A stretch of 64,000 nucleotides of DNA from Natribacillus halophilus. Its GTDB lineage: Bacteria > Bacillota > Bacilli > Bacillales > Marinococcaceae. The DNA lies in contig NZ_FNEN01000001.1 of assembly GCF_900100185.1 (NCBI RefSeq), positions 124,001 through 188,000 of the forward strand, in the 5' to 3' direction. Below are positions 37,186-48,313 of the stretch, piece by piece (positions within the stretch are counted from its first letter, which is position 1; each line of letters starts with the position of its first letter). Under the pieces are notes generated by a model. That model ran no database searches. It was given only the letters and a program-made list of their open reading frames with translations, and had not been told where the DNA came from. A program made the position numbers and the translations under genes.

Positions 37186-37232
37186 CTCGGCTCTTCTCTC
37201 CTTACTCTTCTCCACTCAACTCAACTATACTC
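37186..37232 (-). promoter_or_regulatory. TRAP-binding site in the trp leader
   Basis: On the minus strand a row of about ten (G/U)AG-type triplets is spaced regularly by about 5 bases: GAG at 37232, TAG at 37227, GAG at 37222, 37217, 37212 and 37207, AAG (37202) or GAG (37200), then GAG at 37198, 37193 and 37188. TRAP 11-mers bind such a row when loaded with tryptophan. The TRAP gene mtrB is in this window at 47.3-47.6 kb. Confidence 0.9.
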
Positions 37233-41536: not shown

Positions 41537-42114
41537 ATGAGCAGCCGTTTAACGAGTAAGGCAGCTAATTTTATATCCGCTCATTTGGGCTTTTTTGACG
41601 ATCATCCTATTCATACTGTCTCCGGACATGGATCAATTGGTCAGTGAAGAAGGCCAGGTTGAAGTCCCTCCGGATTACCCAACGGAACAATTTGAACAAT
41701 TGATCGGCGAGCATGACGGTTTTGTCGGTGAAGAAGTGATCATCGCCTACTACGACGAAGAAGGCGTTTCCCGGCAACAGGCGAATGAAATCGAACGGCA
41801 GTTGTCATCGCTGCAGGAAGATCTTATCGCGTTGTGCGTGCTCTTTCGTTCGCTTATCATGCCGCTTTATGTCTTGTTTTCACTGGTAGCCACCTACTTT
41901 GGAACCGCTGCGCTTAACGAGTTGATCTTCACGAATTTAATCGGGTGCCTCGGGCGTGCTCACCCTTCTACAGATCAGTACGCTTGTCGTCCTCGGCTTA
42001 CTCTTTTACTCGTTCGTTTTACTGCCTCTTTTCGTTCCGGCGGTGGCAACGCTTCTAGGTCCATCTGGTGGCCGTTATAAAAAGACTAGCACGGCCACGC
42101 ATTTGGGATATTAA
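41537..42114 (+). pseudogene. Decayed MMPL/RND-family transporter
   Basis: Remnant of an MMPL-type (YdfJ-like) membrane exporter, normally about 700 residues or more. ATG at 41537 (SD GAGGTGA) gives 18 codons, then the frame is lost at the T6 run 41591-41596; the next frame gives L-T-I-I-L-F-I-L-S and a fragment of the outer domain. It then jumps directly into a late membrane segment (V-L-F-R-S-L-I-M-P-L-Y), so an internal part is missing. After about 41950 the frame changes again, and the true C terminus reads L-L-F-Y-S-F-V-L-L-P-L-F-V-P-A in another frame to the stop at 42112-42114. At least two frameshifts and a large internal deletion make function impossible. The plus orientation within a minus-strand block suggests an insertion relative to B. 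subtilis. Confidence 0.82.
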
Positions 42115-42120
42115 GTCGAG

Positions 42121-42380
42121 GTTGGCGACCTAACCGCTTTCGCATTCCCACGTTAGGGCACCATCATACTCCGTTGACGACCTAACCGCTTCCGCATTCC
42201 CACGTTAGGGCACCATCATACTCCGTTGACGACCTAACCGCTTCCGCCGATCCCACGTTAGGGCGCCGTCCTACTCCGTTGACGACCTAACCGCTTACAC
42301 AATCCCACGTTAGGGGTACCATCCTTCTCCGTTGACGACCTAACCGCTTTCGCGATCCCACGTTAGGGCGCCATCATCCA
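42121..42380. repeat. Five-copy tandem repeat, 52-53 bp unit, hairpin in each copy
   Basis: Units start at 42121, 42173, 42225, 42278 and 42331 (lengths 52, 52, 53, 53 and a partial last one). Each opens with GTTGACGACCTAACCGCTT, carries a variable 8-10-base centre and then CCCACGTTAGGG, so that CCTAAC and GTTAGG form a 6-bp stem. This fills the gap between the MMPL remnant and hepT; no open reading frame of note is present. Confidence 0.93.
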
Positions 42381-42420: not shown

Positions 42421-42455
42421 AAAAAGATCGAGCATGAAGGGTTTCCCTCATGCTC
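42421..42455 (-). terminator. Terminator of the folE-to-hepT operon
   Basis: GAGCATG (42430-42436) pairs with CATGCTC (42449-42455), extended by AGGG/CCCT; on the minus strand GATCTTTTTG follows. It lies directly after the hepT stop. Confidence 0.8.
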
Positions 42456-42456
42456 A

Positions 42457-43428
42457 TTAATGGTCGCGTTCGCCAATATAGTTGGCAATTTCAAATAGAG
42501 AGCGGCGCGCAGGAATATCCGGTAACGTCTCCAGCGTTTGATACGCTTTGTTTAAATAACGATTATTAATCGCTCGGGCGTATTCAACTCCACCGCTTTC
42601 CTTGATTTGTTCCAGTAAATGCGCCATTTTTTCCCGGGAGGGCAGACTTTCGGCAAAGGTCTGGAGCAGCTCCGTTTTCAGTGCGGAATCTTTTTCCATG
42701 GCATAAATGACAGGGAGAGTGATATTCCCCTGTAACAAATCGCCACCGGCCGGTTTTCCGAGCGCTTCTTCCGAGCTTGTAAAATCCAGAATATCATCGG
42801 TGATCTGAAAAGCCAGTCCGACGTAATAGCCAAATTGATAAAGCCCCTTCTGCACCTGTGGGGATACACCGGCCACCTGGGCGCCCATTTTACAACTGCC
42901 CGCGATTAAAACCGCCGTTTTACGCCTGATTCTTCGCAAGTACGTTCTGATGTTCTGCTCCCATTCATATTGTAAACGAATTTGTTCGATTTCACCGACG
43001 GCCATTTCATGCATCACCCACGCCATCGTTTCGTGAATGCCGACTTCCTCAAAGTTGGCGACACGGGCAATCGCTTTCCCGAACATATAATCGCCCGTGT
43101 ACATGGCGACGCGATTGTCCCATTTTGCCTTAACGGTTAATTTGCCGCGACGCAAATCCGAGTTATCGATGACATCGTCATGAACGAGGGATGCCATATG
43201 GACGAACTCCAGCGCCACACCGATGTGTTTAAGCGCTTGCGTATCATAGTTTCCGAATTTGGCACTCAATAATGTAAAAACAGGCCGAATGCGTTTTCCG
43301 CCTGCCTGAAGCAACTGCAACGTCGCTTCCTGAAGAACGGGATGGGCTTTGGAAACCGCTTGTTCCATCTCTTTTTCGATGCGATGTATATCACCGCGTA
43401 AATACATGTAGTGGTCGATTAGTTTCAT
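42457..43428 (-). CDS. hepT: Heptaprenyl diphosphate synthase component II
   Basis: Trans-prenyltransferase subunit that, with HepS, makes the C35 tail of menaquinone-7. The 323-residue protein has both aspartate-rich motifs, D-D-V-I-D (84-88) and D-D-I-L-D in the second half, and G-G-K-R-I-R-P. The ATG at 43428 follows GAAGGAG. In B. subtilis hepT directly follows menH (menG); here three genes lie between them. Confidence 0.94.
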   Translation of the reverse strand: MKLIDHYMYLRGDIHRIEKEMEQAVSKAHPVLQEATLQLLQAGGKRIRPVFTLLSAKFGNYDTQALKHIGVALEFVHMASLVHDDVIDNSDLRRGKLTVKAKWDNRVAMYTGDYMFGKAIARVANFEEVGIHETMAWVMHEMAVGEIEQIRLQYEWEQNIRTYLRRIRRKTAVLIAGSCKMGAQVAGVSPQVQKGLYQFGYYVGLAFQITDDILDFTSSEEALGKPAGGDLLQGNITLPVIYAMEKDSALKTELLQTFAESLPSREKMAHLLEQIKESGGVEYARAINNRYLNKAYQTLETLPDIPARRSLFEIANYIGERDH

Positions 43429-43442
43429 GACCGGTGGCTCCT

Positions 43443-44300
43443 TCAATGTATGGAGTGAATGCCCATGCCAATATCCCAAACACTTAGACGATCGACATGA
43501 TTCGGCAAGTACCCTTCTTCATGGGCCAATCGGTAAAAATGAAGAAGGCCGCGTTGTTCAACACGTGTAAATTGATGTTGCAATGTCTTAAAATAGTCTT
43601 GCCAAAAAGGAATGTTTCCGCCGTGATCAGCCACAACGGCGTGGGCCAGCTCTTCATATCCGTCCGCACGTGCGCGCTCCTCGCTCTTTTTCCAATCATC
43701 ATGAAGCGCTTGTAAAGCTTGAGGTTCTTCGGCAAGGGATTGCTTTCTCATCGCGAATACGGCGAAAGTCATTGGCATCCTCGTGAAATGATACCATCTT
43801 TCTCCTAAATCATAAACATACATTTGTTCATGTTCGCGCCAATTCGCCTGGATCGCGTCATCCCCGATCAACAGGCAAGCATCATGGTTCTCAAGCATAT
43901 CCTGGTAGACGGGAGCCATCGTGGTATAATCGATGTTTCTGTGACCGTAAAACCGCCTGAGGATAATCTTCAAAAGATGGCTGGACGTCGCTGAGCTATG
44001 CGTAAGTGCAATGCTTTTACCATCCAAATCTTCGATGGGGGCCCTGGAAAACAAGAAAATCGACCCCACCGGCCCATGGGAAGCAACCGCCAAATTGGGC
44101 ATCAGGATCAAATCCTCGTATTGTTTCCCGTAAGCAAACGAAGAAATCGCGCCGACGTCGATCTCCCCGTTGGCCATCGCATCATTCAACCGGGCGGGAA
44201 TACTGGGGATGAAACGGCTGTGGGCGCTTAATGCTTCCCGGTCCATGTAAAAAAAGAAAGGGTGGACATTCGTATACAGGATCTCGCCGACACGTACCAT
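43443..44300 (-). CDS. mqnA: Chorismate dehydratase MqnA (futalosine menaquinone pathway)
   Basis: Protein of 285 residues of the MqnA/MqnD periplasmic-binding-like fold; it most likely converts chorismate to 3-enolpyruvylbenzoate, the first step of the futalosine route. Visible family features are N-V-H-P-F near the N terminus, the D-x-G-A-I-S-S-F segment, S-S-A-T-S-S-H-L-L-K and L-L-I-G-D-D-A. It is closer to MqnA than to MqnD because of the S-S-x-T-S motif and its starting pattern V-G-x-I-x-Y-x-N. It starts directly after the UbiX-like stop (TAAATG). MqnB, MqnC, MqnE and MqnD are not in this window. Confidence 0.82.
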   Translation of the reverse strand: MVRVGEILYTNVHPFFFYMDREALSAHSRFIPSIPARLNDAMANGEIDVGAISSFAYGKQYEDLILMPNLAVASHGPVGSIFLFSRAPIEDLDGKSIALTHSSATSSHLLKIILRRFYGHRNIDYTTMAPVYQDMLENHDACLLIGDDAIQANWREHEQMYVYDLGERWYHFTRMPMTFAVFAMRKQSLAEEPQALQALHDDWKKSEERARADGYEELAHAVVADHGGNIPFWQDYFKTLQHQFTRVEQRGLLHFYRLAHEEGYLPNHVDRLSVWDIGMGIHSIH

Positions 44301-44897
44301 TTACTCATCCCCCCAGCGTGTAAAGAGCTGATGATCGACATCGAGGCGATCCAAAATTTTTCCCACGACAAAATCGACGAGATCATCAACGGTTTCGGGT
44401 CTATGATAAAACCCGGGCATCGCCGGTATAATTGTGGCTCCCGCGTCGGCCATCGTTTTCATATTGTGGAGGTGAATGCTGTGCAACGGGGTCTCACGCG
44501 GAACGATTACCAGTTGTCGCCCTTCCTTGAGGGCTACATCCGCGCTGCGTTCCAGCAAACTCCCGGAGTTGCCGTTTGCGATTTTTGATAACGTCCCCAT
44601 GGAGCAAGGCACAACAACCATCCCGTCAGTGCGGTAAGAACCGCTGGCGACAGGAGCCGAAAAATTTTGCAAGCCATGAATATGCAAATCCCCTTCCGGA
44701 AACAAGGTGTGTAAACACGCCTCCTGGTCCGAAGTGTCCAGCTCAAGCTCCTGTTCAAACACTTGCCATGCAGCGCCGGACATGAGGAAATGGACTTTCA
44801 CCCCGCGTTTTAACAAGCCCTGCACGAGTCGAACACCGTAAATCGCACCACTCGCTCCGGTCATGGCCACTGTGTAGATCAGCTGTCTATCTGTCAT
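44301..44897 (-). CDS. UbiX-like flavin prenyltransferase, probably for menaquinone synthesis
   Basis: Makes the prenylated FMN cofactor needed by UbiD-type decarboxylases. The 198-residue protein has G-A-S-G-A-I-Y-G, C-S-M-G-T-L-S-K-I-A and P-R-E-T-P-L, all typical of UbiX/Pad1. It overlaps the UbiA-like gene by four bases (ATGA) and abuts mqnA, so it probably serves the late decarboxylation of prenylated dihydroxynaphthoate. The partner UbiD-like decarboxylase is not in this window. Confidence 0.88.
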   Translation of the reverse strand: MTDRQLIYTVAMTGASGAIYGVRLVQGLLKRGVKVHFLMSGAAWQVFEQELELDTSDQEACLHTLFPEGDLHIHGLQNFSAPVASGSYRTDGMVVVPCSMGTLSKIANGNSGSLLERSADVALKEGRQLVIVPRETPLHSIHLHNMKTMADAGATIIPAMPGFYHRPETVDDLVDFVVGKILDRLDVDHQLFTRWGDE

Positions 44898-45757
44898 ATC
44901 ATAAAATCTCCAATCGTGAACGCGAGCATGACCATGCTCACAATCCCATTCATCGTAAAAAAAGCAACGTTGACATTCGAAAGATCACTCGCGGAGACGA
45001 GTGAATGCTCATAGATCATGATCGCTGCTGATATACAAGCTCCGATGAAATAAATGATGCCTAATTCGGATACGAAAAAAAGCGAAAAAAGCGCGACAAT
45101 GCTCACGACATGACTACTTCTGGCTACTTGCAGGGCGCGTTTAACACCAAAACGGGCAGGTATGGAATACAAGCCGACTTCCTGATCATGATCGGCATCC
45201 TGGCTCGCGTAAATAATATCAAAACCTGCAGTCCAGAACATCACGACAAAAAAGAGCAAAAAGGCTTCCGGATGCAAGCCCCCCGTTGCTGCGACCCATC
45301 CTCCCATAGGCGCGATGGCAATCGTCATCCCGAGAATGAAATGACACAGCCATGTAAACCTCTTCGTATAGGAATAGATAACGAGAAAGAACACCGCCAC
45401 CGGCAGTAAATAAACGGCAAGCATATTCAATTGAAAGGCGGCTGTGAATAATAACACTAATGATACGAAAATAAAGAGGATAATTTCAAGGTAGGAAATA
45501 AGTCCAGCCGGTATCGCCCGCTCAGCGGTGCGGGGATTACGTTTATCAATCTCTGCATCGATCAGACGGTTTAGGCTCATGGCCGCGCTTCTCGCCCCGA
45601 ACATGGCCACCGTCACCCAGATCCATTGCGAAAACGTCGGCCATTGCCCCGTGATTTCAAAGCTTCCGAGAATCATCCCTAAAAAGGCAAACGGCAGCGC
45701 AAAAATCGTATGTTCAAACTTGATCATTTCGAGTATAATTCTGATTTTCCGTATCAC
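44894..45757 (-). CDS. mqnP: UbiA-family prenyltransferase, probable MqnP, GTG start
   Basis: Membrane prenyltransferase of 287 residues with eight or so hydrophobic segments. The first polyprenyl-binding motif is N-R-L-I-D-A-E-I-D and the second D-x-x-Y-A-x-Q-D-x-x-x-D. It is more like UbiA (4-hydroxybenzoate type) than MenA, and with mqnA next to it the acceptor is probably 1,4-dihydroxy-6-naphthoate. The GTG at 45757 lies one base after menG with SD GAGAGGG. Confidence 0.82.
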   Translation of the reverse strand: MIRKIRIILEMIKFEHTIFALPFAFLGMILGSFEITGQWPTFSQWIWVTVAMFGARSAAMSLNRLIDAEIDKRNPRTAERAIPAGLISYLEIILFIFVSLVLLFTAAFQLNMLAVYLLPVAVFFLVIYSYTKRFTWLCHFILGMTIAIAPMGGWVAATGGLHPEAFLLFFVVMFWTAGFDIIYASQDADHDQEVGLYSIPARFGVKRALQVARSSHVVSIVALFSLFFVSELGIIYFIGACISAAIMIYEHSLVSASDLSNVNVAFFTMNGIVSMVMLAFTIGDFMI

Positions 45758-45758
45758 A

Positions 45759-46481
45759 TCATTCCCTCTCTTCTTTCACGGGCATCGGTTTAAATCCCCA
45801 ATGCCCGGCCGCTGCCCCGGCAGCGTAACTGCAATAGTTCACCTCTTCAAATCCGGCATCCTCGAACCAGCGGGCAAGCTTTTGCTTGTTCGGAAAGTGA
45901 ACAGTCGATTCGTTGAGCCATTCGTATTTATCCGTACCCGTGAACCATTTCCCAAGTTTGGGCATCACGCGTTGAAAATAGACGCTGTATACAGGCTTGA
46001 TGAAAACGTTATCAGGTCGGGACGTCTCCAGACAAAGGGCTTGTCCCCCGGGTTTAAGCACACGGTTCATCTCTTTGAGCGTCAAGTGCGGCTCCGGGAC
46101 ATTCCGTAGGCCAAACCCGATCGTAACGATATCAAACGTTTCGGCCGCAAACGGTAATTCGCCGGCATTTCCATGAATTAAACGGGCATTGCTCACGCCG
46201 GCCTTCCGGATTTTTTCCCGCCCTACTTCCAGCATCCGCTCGCTGAAATCAAGTCCGATCACCTCTCCGCCTTGAAGATGTTGGGCACTCGCGATCGTCC
46301 AGTCAGCGGTCCCCGCACATACGTCGAGCACATTTGCGTTCGCCTGAAAATCGATGCGTTTCATCATATCTTTTCTCCATAAGGTGTGCATCTTCAGGCT
46401 AATCACACCGTTCATGCGATCATATCGGCCTGAAATCGACTCAAATACGTCGTGGACGTGTTGTTCTTTTCTTTTATTCAT
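45759..46481 (-). CDS. menG: Demethylmenaquinone methyltransferase
   Basis: SAM-dependent C-methyltransferase (UbiE/MenG family) doing the last step of menaquinone synthesis. The 240-residue protein has the SAM motif L-D-V-C-A-G-T-A-D, the D-F-S-E-R-M-L motif and G-F-G-L-R-N-V-P. It lies between hepS and the UbiA-like gene. Confidence 0.95.
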   Translation of the reverse strand: MNKRKEQHVHDVFESISGRYDRMNGVISLKMHTLWRKDMMKRIDFQANANVLDVCAGTADWTIASAQHLQGGEVIGLDFSERMLEVGREKIRKAGVSNARLIHGNAGELPFAAETFDIVTIGFGLRNVPEPHLTLKEMNRVLKPGGQALCLETSRPDNVFIKPVYSVYFQRVMPKLGKWFTGTDKYEWLNESTVHFPNKQKLARWFEDAGFEEVNYCSYAAGAAAGHWGFKPMPVKEERE

Positions 46482-46511: not shown

Positions 46512-47300
46512 TCAGGCGTCGATAACCGTCTGAACACGGTCCGCGAGGGAGGAGGGGATGGTGCTGTTGAAATTCGCCAAGGCTTCTCGCAGTTTCGTCT
46601 GTTGGCTTACAACCGTCTCCCGGAGACGTTTCTTTAAAAGATACTTTTCTTCATCAGCGCATCTATCTGTCGGCCTGCTCGACACGAGCGGCGCAAGCAG
46701 GGATGATCCCCAGCTTTCCGTGCCTTGCTCCAGTAAGTGTAACATTTCCTTCAATTTCCTTAGCCCCAAAAAATAGGGAACGATTTGCTGGATCGCCTGC
46801 TGCTGATAAAAATCGGCAAGACCAGCGATCAACGTCGCCTCCATATCCGAGATTAATCGCTCCAATTCAGCAGCCGTGTGCCAGTCACCGGCATGTAAAC
46901 GCACCTTGGCGTTGTTCATCGTCTGGGTCGACTCGCTGAACAAACGAATGAGGGGAATGTCCGCCAGTTCCGCCAGTCTTTTATAGTACATACTGCTGTA
47001 TAAATCGCCGGCGAGCACCGTTAATTGTTCGTATGTGCCATCAGACGTCCGGTCACTATGTAAGGAAATATGGTGATGGACGGTAAGGGCGGCATCGAGG
47101 AGCATCGCGGATATCACCCGTTCCAGTTTCGCTCGTTCATCAAGCGTTTCGGTTTGTATCGCGTGCAATAAAAAACAAGTCTTGTCTTCATCACACGGGG
47201 GACTCATCCCATATCTCTTCAGAAAATAATGATGACTAAGGTCGTTGAATTCAGAGATGACCGATTTGAGCTGTTGCTGTTCTGTCGTCATACTCTCCAT
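46512..47300 (-). CDS. hepS: Heptaprenyl diphosphate synthase component I
   Basis: Non-catalytic partner of HepT, 262 residues, largely alpha-helical, matching HepS by position between mtrB and menG and by D-A-A-L-x-V-H-H-x-I-S-L, L-A-G-D-L-Y-S-S-x-Y-Y and L-A-x-x-x-D-I-P-L-I-R. The ATG at 47300 follows GGAGGAA. Confidence 0.88.
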   Translation of the reverse strand: MESMTTEQQQLKSVISEFNDLSHHYFLKRYGMSPPCDEDKTCFLLHAIQTETLDERAKLERVISAMLLDAALTVHHHISLHSDRTSDGTYEQLTVLAGDLYSSMYYKRLAELADIPLIRLFSESTQTMNNAKVRLHAGDWHTAAELERLISDMEATLIAGLADFYQQQAIQQIVPYFLGLRKLKEMLHLLEQGTESWGSSLLAPLVSSRPTDRCADEEKYLLKKRLRETVVSQQTKLREALANFNSTIPSSLADRVQTVIDA

Positions 47301-47333
47301 ATTTGTTCCTCCAGGTTCTTTTGGAGCCAAGAT

Positions 47334-47555
47334 TCAGGACTCTTCTTCCGTTTTCATTTCACCATGGGCTGTTTGAATGACCGCCTTGCCGCGCACTTTG
47401 ACGGCAGACGTATGTTCTGTGAACTGGGCGATCATCGTTTCGCCTTTGTCGAGTTTTTCGGTATGGTGAAAACGAGTCGTATTTCCTCTCGTCAATCCGA
47501 TAACGTTCACGCCATCTTCCTGTGCCTTGATAACAAAAAAATCATTTTCCCGCAC
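47334..47555 (-). CDS. mtrB: TRAP, tryptophan RNA-binding attenuation protein, GTG start
   Basis: 73-residue subunit of the 11-mer ring that binds tryptophan and then (G/U)AG triplets in the trp leader. It is nearly colinear with the B. subtilis protein; the RNA-contacting lysine and arginine pairs are kept (K34 in E-K-L-D-K, K53 and R55 in V-K-V-R-G), as is the T-R-G loop. The GTG at 47555 follows a full AAAGGAGGT at 9 bases. It follows folE as in the mtrAB operon. Its target is the trpE leader at 37.2 kb. Confidence 0.96.
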
Positions 47556-47633: not shown

Positions 47634-48197
47634 TCAATTTATGAGTGCCAACACTTCAGAACGCGAAGCAGGATCCTTTTCCAGGGCGCCGCGTACCGCG
47701 GAAGTCACGGTGGTACTTCCCGGTTTTTTAATACCGCGCATCGTCATGCACATATGTTCAGCTTCCACGACCACCATCACCCCATGGGGTTCGAGCGTTT
47801 TCACAAGGGCATTGGCGACCTCAGACGTAATTCTTTCCTGCAGTTGCGGTCTGCGCGCCACCGTTTCCACCGCACGGGCAAGCTTGCTCAACCCTGTGAC
47901 CCTTCCGTTTTTAGGGATATAGCCTATATGCGCCTTTCCAAAAAAAGGTAAAAGGTGATGTTCACACATGGAGTAAAAAGGTATATCTTTTACGAGGACA
48001 AGTTCTTCATGCTCCTCCCCGAAAATCGTTCGCAAATGTTCTTCCGGCTCGTCATTCAGGCCGCTGAAAATTTCTTCATACATACGCGCCACACGCGCAG
48101 GTGTTTCTGTAATGCCTTCGCGGTCCGGATTCTCGCCGATTGCTTCCAACAATTGCCGCACCGCTGCTTCCAATTTATCATGGTCAAATGTATTCAA
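47634..48197 (-). CDS. folE: GTP cyclohydrolase I (MtrA), TTG start
   Basis: First enzyme of folate synthesis, 187 residues with C-E-H-H zinc ligand region, H-G-V-M-V-V-V-E-A-x-H-M-C-M-x-x-R-G and V-T-S-A. ATG at 48212 has no SD, while TTG at 48197 has GGAGG at 8 bases and gives an N terminus aligned with B. subtilis FolE, so TTG is preferred. It opens the folE-mtrB-hepS-menG-mqnP-UbiX-mqnA-hepT operon. Confidence 0.94.
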
Positions 48198-48234
48198 CGT
48201 TGGGTCCTCCATTATGTATGTTTAATCGCTAGAG

Positions 48235-48263: not shown

Positions 48264-48313
48264 TCCACTTGCGACTGTCTTGATTATAACACTTACAGGG
48301 GCAAGATGATAAA

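Follow-up and report, generated by a model that had tools for sequence, protein, structure and literature searches.

The menG-hepT junction of Bacilli reports the menaquinone pathway and was probably emptied repeatedly of futalosine genes

How did genes of the futalosine route to menaquinone come to lie between two genes that are neighbors in Bacillus subtilis? The question is raised by a 64,000-nucleotide stretch of the Natribacillus halophilus genome (contig NZ_FNEN01000001.1, positions 124,001 to 188,000; hereafter the window), in which three genes resembling mqnP, mqnM/ubiX and mqnA stand head to tail at 43443-45757 between menG and hepT, a position that we call the slot. For B. subtilis we take the supraoperon order to be mtrAB-hepS-menG-hepT-ndk-cheR-aro-trp. 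On either side of the slot the window follows that gene order, with a leader of the type recognized by TRAP (trp RNA-binding attenuation protein) before trpE, but it differs in holding mqnP-mqnM-mqnA between menG and hepT; the B. subtilis control genome had MenD and gave no match to PF02621. An initial annotation of the window saw here a conserved operon frame into which the futalosine genes had been inserted, a pathway swap for which B. subtilis gave the reference. The frame, folE-mtrB-hepS-menG-[slot]-hepT, is indeed present. Nevertheless, comparison across the class argues that the filled slot is probably the ancestral one in Bacilli, and that it lost its genes again and again in lineages that changed to the Men pathway.

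The content of the slot was described correctly in the initial annotation: coordinates, sequence and profile matches agree on mqnA-, UbiX- and UbiA-like genes, all on the minus strand. The first, a UbiA-family prenyltransferase gene with a GTG start (44894-45757), scored 321.6 bits on TIGR01475 (cut-off, 180.8) and 347.4, 271.9 and 233.2 bits on three MqnP-named models; because the latter scores are below the cut-offs of 430, 420 and 375, we use the cautious name MqnP-like. It overlaps the mqnM/UbiX flavin prenyltransferase gene (44301-44897; TIGR00421, 208.6 bits; cut-off, 108.9) by the four bases ATGA at 44894-44897, and this gene in turn meets mqnA at a TAAATG junction (44298-44303). The mqnA gene (43443-44300) encodes a chorismate dehydratase by its PF02621 match (212.5 bits; cut-off, 26), and its top matches among solved structures were 2nxo (Streptomyces, SCO4506) and the chorismate dehydratases 7ahr, at an E value of about 2e-31 with equal length and score. 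The left wall of the slot is the demethylmenaquinone methyltransferase gene menG (45759-46481; NF001243, 305.7 bits; cut-off, 235), which scored 296.1 bits on the heptaprenyl-type model TIGR02752, below the cut-off of 419.85. The right wall is hepT, for heptaprenyl diphosphate synthase component II (42457-43479; TIGR02748, 469.4 bits; cut-off, 456.55), although by eye a start at about 43428 better matches a ribosome-binding site. Since the arrangement recurs in dozens of genomes, it is not due to chance.

In outline, the futalosine (Mqn) pathway of the Streptomyces, Thermus and Helicobacter types comprises mqnABCDE with MqnP, MqnM and MqnL. Chorismate is dehydrated by MqnA, a UbiD decarboxylase uses the product of UbiX, and a UbiA enzyme attaches the tail; hepS and hepT make the C35 tail and MenG performs the last methylation in both menaquinone routes. 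The genome of the window (G000 in our sample) shares with these systems the mqnA, B, C, D and E families, the UbiX/UbiA pair, and the absence of MenD. Besides the MqnA of the window, it carries a second PF02621 protein (241.2 bits) encoded beside a futalosine hydrolase gene, and the mqnB neighbor together with the same pairing in relatives leads us to read this protein as MqnD, not MqnA. The hydrolase, MqnB (L001), scored 221.5 bits on TIGR03664 (cut-off, 124.7), and at two further places in the genome lie mqnC (L003; TIGR03699, 475.6 bits; cut-off, 428.1) and mqnE (L004; TIGR03700, 455.8 bits; cut-off, 434.55). The initial annotation had proposed a search for mqnB, C, D and E and a UbiD-like gene, as well as for an absence of menFDHCEB. 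All four mqn genes were found, with two UbiD genes. On the Men side the expectation held for MenD, the sole Men enzyme searched, for which the best match in the genome had an E value of 2.2e-20, nothing being near the cut-off and none reaching 1e-60. The outcome that was to refute the reading, a complete Men set with neither mqnC nor mqnD, is contradicted on the mqn side and, among the Men enzymes, for MenD. With mqnB-mqnD, mqnC, mqnE and two UbiD genes present and no MenD near the cut-off, the gene content gives good support to menaquinone synthesis of the futalosine type. Unlike in the pathway outline, the genes are spread over four contigs, with three of the genes placed in the TRAP/heptaprenyl operon, and the assignment of MqnL is weak. 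One of the two UbiD proteins stands alone (L005, 631-2448) and has 605 amino acids, against 485 and 486 for two slot mqnL proteins in relatives; it is perhaps a divergent replacement of mqnL. The other belongs to a second UbiX-UbiD pair (L006, 1039-3529), adjoining an isochorismatase-family gene (PF00857), which is possibly a separate aromatic-acid decarboxylase system.

The pattern extends through the order, represented by 199 genomes. PF02621 matched 41 of these; two weak matches, those of G016 (2.7e-9, above the Pfam cut-off) and G189 (4.9e-5), were not counted, which left 39 futalosine-type genomes, and both of the genomes not counted carry MenD (1.3e-149 and 8.6e-152, respectively). The mqnP and mqnA genes lie between menG and hepT in 38 of the 39, the window among them, and mqnM is also in the slot in 34. 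MenD was over the cut-off in 159 of the 199 genomes, and none of the 39 futalosine-type genomes was among these 159 when the lists were compared by reading. At all 39 men-type regions examined in the order (38 with MenD, plus G180, a genome with neither gene that is 87% complete), hepT directly follows menG and no cassette gene is present. A scan of named genomes with an MqnA alignment confirmed 100 relatives, and the order menG-mqnA-hepT was found in 78 of the best 80 of these 100 loci, including ones from Brevibacillus, Thermoactinomyces, Baia, Fictibacillus, Evansella and Alkalihalophilus pseudofirmus OF4 (L235). Of the other two, L243 ends at a contig end and L250 (Ammoniphilus resinae) shows no menG or mqnP. 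The named loci share species with the coded genomes, so the two sets of counts are not independent.

The exception among the 39 is G145, a single-contig genome with only mqnP in its slot. Here mqnM and mqnA are gone (L098, 6183-8938; L070), no MqnA was found elsewhere, mqnB-mqnD is retained, and MenD is below the cut-off; the genome would have either an unrecognized chorismate dehydratase or a broken pathway. The slot also lacks mqnM in G087, G069, G130 and G156 (L049, L064, L067 and L071); in G087 the place of mqnM (L049, 3674-4235) is taken by a 575-base stretch in which a short coding-like motif recurs.

Next, we considered the class, taken as Bacilli from its named relatives and sampled with 398 genomes. 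At thresholds of E ≤ 1e-20 for MqnA and E ≤ 1e-60 for MenD, MqnA was present in 123 genomes, MenD in 216, and both in 0 of the 398. Futalosine-type genomes outside the order were taken one per family, chosen for MqnA, from 20 of the 21 families that show it; family f70, also futalosine-type, was left out because its match lies at a contig start. Each of the 20 has hepT at one end of the mqn block, and in five of them mqnC separates mqnA from hepT; menG stands at the other end in 19, G231 being without a detected menG. These slots contain mqnA in 20, mqnM in 19 and mqnP in 16 cases, and five genomes have a UbiD gene there. Some hold larger blocks: mqnE- and mqnC-like genes flank mqnA in five outside genomes (L310, L312, L315, L320 and L322), although the mqnE match at L315, in G218, is only 26% identical. 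L310 reads menG-mqnL-mqnM-mqnE-mqnA-mqnC-hepT, with mqnL (660.8 bits), mqnE (499.2 bits) and mqnC (502.3 bits) all above cut-offs, and the slot UbiD of L307 is likewise above the MqnL cut-off (661.6 bits). Among 26 men-type genomes outside the order, hepT loci were readable in 23 (G357 had no HepT match, and those of G284 and G271 had no detectable neighbors). At 22 of these 23 loci menG directly precedes hepT, G288 being without a detectable menG, and none of the 23 has a cassette gene. The slot state reports the pathway in these samples. A state with both pathways together, sought as an intermediate, was found neither in the order nor in the 398 class genomes. Cassette remnants in empty slots were also sought at 62 men-type loci, where one weak match (E 0.008; 26% over 72 residues) turned up, from which we claim nothing. 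The operons of G231 (L319), G288 (L333) and Ammoniphilus resinae (L250), in which menG was not detected, suggest that this left-hand boundary is itself open to loss or relocation.

The slot state has changed several times. All trees were quick ones with support from the Shimodaira-Hasegawa-like approximate likelihood ratio test (SH-aLRT), and branches called starred below deserve less trust. On the rpoB tree, with 77 of 78 genomes of the order (G033, whose rpoB match is in pieces, was omitted), the pathway label needs four changes, three of them forced by starred branches. The spoIVA+aroC+ndk+mtrB tree (81 genomes; 16 dropped) needs five changes, four forced, and the menG+hepT+ndk tree of the class (104 genomes; 17 dropped) needs 13, of which 9 are forced by starred branches. 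On the last of these a single men clade is rejected by the approximately unbiased (AU) test (p-AU 1.9e-8), and some men-type genomes with an outside code (G200, G206, G208, G230 and G346) fall among the men rows of the order. If this tree is rooted between its two starred halves, an ancestrally filled slot needs at least 15 emptyings, or 9 when only branches of at least 95 are counted and 7 when only those of at least 99 are. Independently of these trees, the given genome groups have both pathways represented within each of the families f1, f46, f54 and f60, and genus g111 is mixed, with MqnA in G211, G262 and G276 and MenD in G248. Within the family of the window itself, G107 is men-type with an empty slot yet sits inside a futalosine-type clade, on starred branches of 98 and 95 in the rpoB tree and of 97 and 97 in the menG+hepT tree.

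In which direction did these changes run? The occupation of the slot by mqnA in all 20 outside families, together with an MqnA that diverges along with rpoB and the flanking genes, makes the empty junction of the B. subtilis type more likely derived; neither the word inserted nor the use of B. subtilis as the reference state in the initial annotation is supported by this comparison. Over 38 genomes, distances correlated with those of rpoB at r 0.775 for MqnA, close to the values for HepT (0.79) and MenG (0.795). A tree of the mqnA+mqnP+mqnM cassette (51 rows after dropping 8 near-duplicates) separates the order from the rest on a starred branch of 99; from this tree the mqnP matches of G211, G218, G232 and G298 and the mqnM match of G232 had been removed, these genomes having no such slot gene. 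The cassettes of Fictibacillus and G034 fall outside the 27-row group of the order's other cassettes (support, 91), although not within another family. Inside the order, MenD seems to follow its hosts less closely than MqnA does, its correlation with the flanks being 0.485 (21 rows) as opposed to 0.839 (27 rows). One transfer of MenD is suggested by a tree of 40 men-type genomes (G107 is not among them), in which the MenD of G259, from f54 outside the order, pairs with that of G062 inside it (95, starred), whereas menG-hepT-ndk of G259 groups with that of G205, which is futalosine-type and likewise from f54 (100, starred).

Several observations weigh against this account. Fitch parsimony leaves the root state undecided, so that the direction rests on positional homology and congruence, and the quick trees, with their less trusted starred branches, weaken the claim. 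Rejection of one futalosine clade in the order on rpoB is moderate (p-AU 0.016). MqnP follows rpoB less closely than MqnA does (r 0.659, the same 38 genomes), and the cassette tree joins f26 to f1 (97, starred) whereas the rpoB tree joins f26 to f29 (92). Outside the order the relation of MenD and MqnA to the flanks is reversed, MenD at 0.815 (17 rows) standing above MqnA at 0.67 (19 rows); long MenD branches (G200, G227 and G230) may drive that high MenD correlation. As to the pathway itself, the better of the two UbiD proteins reached 363.6 bits on the MqnL model TIGR03701, below the cut-off of 495.9, which makes its role no more than likely.

Other explanations of the locus have to be set beside these data. 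Were the B. subtilis junction original and the futalosine genes inserted, the men-type majority in the order (159 of 199 over the MenD cut-off) and the several changes of label would be in keeping with it. However, the same genes would have had to enter the same junction in the same order many separate times, in the 20 outside families too, and this sits poorly with an MqnA that diverges in step with rpoB and HepT and with the larger blocks that occupy the very same slot. Repeated insertion of this kind is unlikely, and we consider the insertion explanation improbable. Filled and empty slots might instead be alleles that lineages exchange, with the conserved menG and hepT serving homologous recombination and a direction that varies from case to case. 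The many state changes speak for such exchange, as do the occurrence of both states within f1, f46, f54, f60 and g111 and a MenD that seems to have crossed orders. On the other hand, the cassette tree keeps the order apart, the deviating Fictibacillus and G034 cassettes do not join another family, and the flanks of the switched G107, G245, G259 and G248 remain with their own families; exchange is thus a possible but doubtful explanation.

Alternatively, the slot genes might serve another pathway altogether, for example a phenolic-acid UbiX/UbiD system with a substrate-binding-like protein, menaquinone being made by other means. The UbiX and UbiA families are versatile, the MqnP-named models were below their cut-offs, and the genome holds a second UbiX-UbiD pair, all of which would suit this idea. 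Against it stand the mqnB-mqnD pair, mqnC and mqnE in a genome where MenD is absent, the match of MqnA to solved chorismate dehydratases, and the fact that MqnA and MenD never occur together in 398 genomes; we regard it as very improbable.

We therefore return to an ancestrally filled slot, for which the following course of events can be proposed. The frame mtrB-hepS-menG-hepT would hold the steps common to both routes, namely, the C35 tail and the final methylation, and the slot those specific to the futalosine route: prenyl transfer by mqnP, supply of prenylated flavin mononucleotide for UbiD by mqnM, and conversion of chorismate to 3-enolpyruvylbenzoate by mqnA. Gene content, position, exclusivity and several changes of state are observations, and to them we add the inferred direction of change, enzyme activities and cotranscription. 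The ancestral slot in Bacilli was most likely filled by a larger block, with mqnL, mqnP, mqnM, mqnE, mqnA and mqnC in some combination. Gain of the Men pathway would have been followed, many times, by loss of this block, which brings menG beside hepT in the manner of B. subtilis. The slot steps would be useless in a cell where 1,4-dihydroxy-2-naphthoate and MenA come from the Men enzymes, and this would account for the disappearance of the slot while the frame persists. On balance we favor a still broader statement, although with less assurance: that the slot is the relic of a futalosine operon ancestral to Bacilli, that Men genes gained by horizontal transfer replaced it and left it empty on at least 7 to 15 independent occasions, that the B. 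subtilis operon carries the deletion scar, and that the futalosine route is ancestral in the class.

The mutual exclusivity of the Men and futalosine pathways and multiple switches between them across Bacteria have been described, with worked cases in Actinomycetota and the former Deltaproteobacteria (mSystems 2026, PMC13386864). The available part of that paper treats as open both which of the two pathways is older and what makes lineages swap one for the other, and it contains neither a gene-order analysis nor a case from Bacilli, whereas here the switch is tied to a fixed slot. Judging likewise from available parts, both pathways have been tabulated in Firmicutes (PMC3914697), mqnABCD noted in Alkalihalobacillus, a group of close relatives (PMC8543038), and an mqnEAC operon reported in other Bacillota, Pelotomaculum and Syntrophomonas among them (PMC4746308); the E-A-C order of the latter is that of the five larger slots named above. 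Unlike in our data, no placement of mqn genes between menG and hepT appears in those parts of the last two papers, and no description of the slot was found among the open-licence papers searched, at the level of titles and abstract starts. Exclusivity and switching being already published, the interest lies in the slot pattern across the class, of which the locus in the window is an ordinary example. One easily aligned locus that reports the pathway offers many replicate switches within a single class, and would allow tests of the direction of change, the donors of Men genes, and ecological causes. Its state could also be a cheap marker of likely sensitivity to inhibitors of the futalosine pathway. 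A word of caution follows for comparative work in that the B. subtilis gene order is not to be assumed ancestral.

The genes around the slot follow in the minus-strand order spoIVA, folE, mtrB, hepS, menG, UbiA gene, UbiX gene, mqnA, hepT, ndk, cheR, aroC, aroB, trpE; downstream of trpE, the genes were named by eye only. The operon frame starts with folE, for GTP cyclohydrolase I (47634-48212; NF006826, 305.2 bits; cut-off, 162), followed by mtrB, for TRAP (47334-47555; NF009724, 136.4 bits; cut-off, 117; also PF02081), and hepS, for heptaprenyl diphosphate synthase component I (46512-47330; PF07307, 139.6 bits; cut-off, 30). A minus-strand promoter-like site upstream of folE (48283-48312) has 10 of 12 matches, with TG, and a minus-strand terminator-like hairpin directly after hepT (42429-42456; 12 pairs, 6 of them GC; a consensus match only) is the probable end of the operon. 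These sites fit a single folE-to-hepT transcript. The proposal in the initial annotation that the chorismate entry step shares a promoter with TRAP stands as a prediction only, and the region has no surplus of promoter-like sites (17, versus 14.8 in shuffles).

TRAP itself probably controls trpE (identified by PF04715 and PF00425), as indicated by a TRAP-binding-like GAG/TAG run in the minus-strand leader (37205-37232, extending by eye to about 37190) and a terminator-like hairpin after it (37161-37138). Runs of at least four GAG/TAG triplets spaced 2 to 3 bases apart occur in the whole window only there and at 1391-1429. The latter is a perfect run of seven GAG triplets in an Asp/Glu-rich coding tail, a false TRAP-site match by codon repetition. 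TRAP control of mqnA was considered and rejected, as the same strict scan gave no run near the slot genes.

Two further features lie downstream of hepT. A plus-strand open frame of 161 amino acids (41595-42080), opposed to the operon, had no Pfam match at E 0.01. Between hepT and ndk, positions 42094-42368 hold five imperfect copies of a unit of about 52 bases (GACCTAACCGCTT...CCCACGTTAGGG), the core of which has four matches in the window, every one inside this array.

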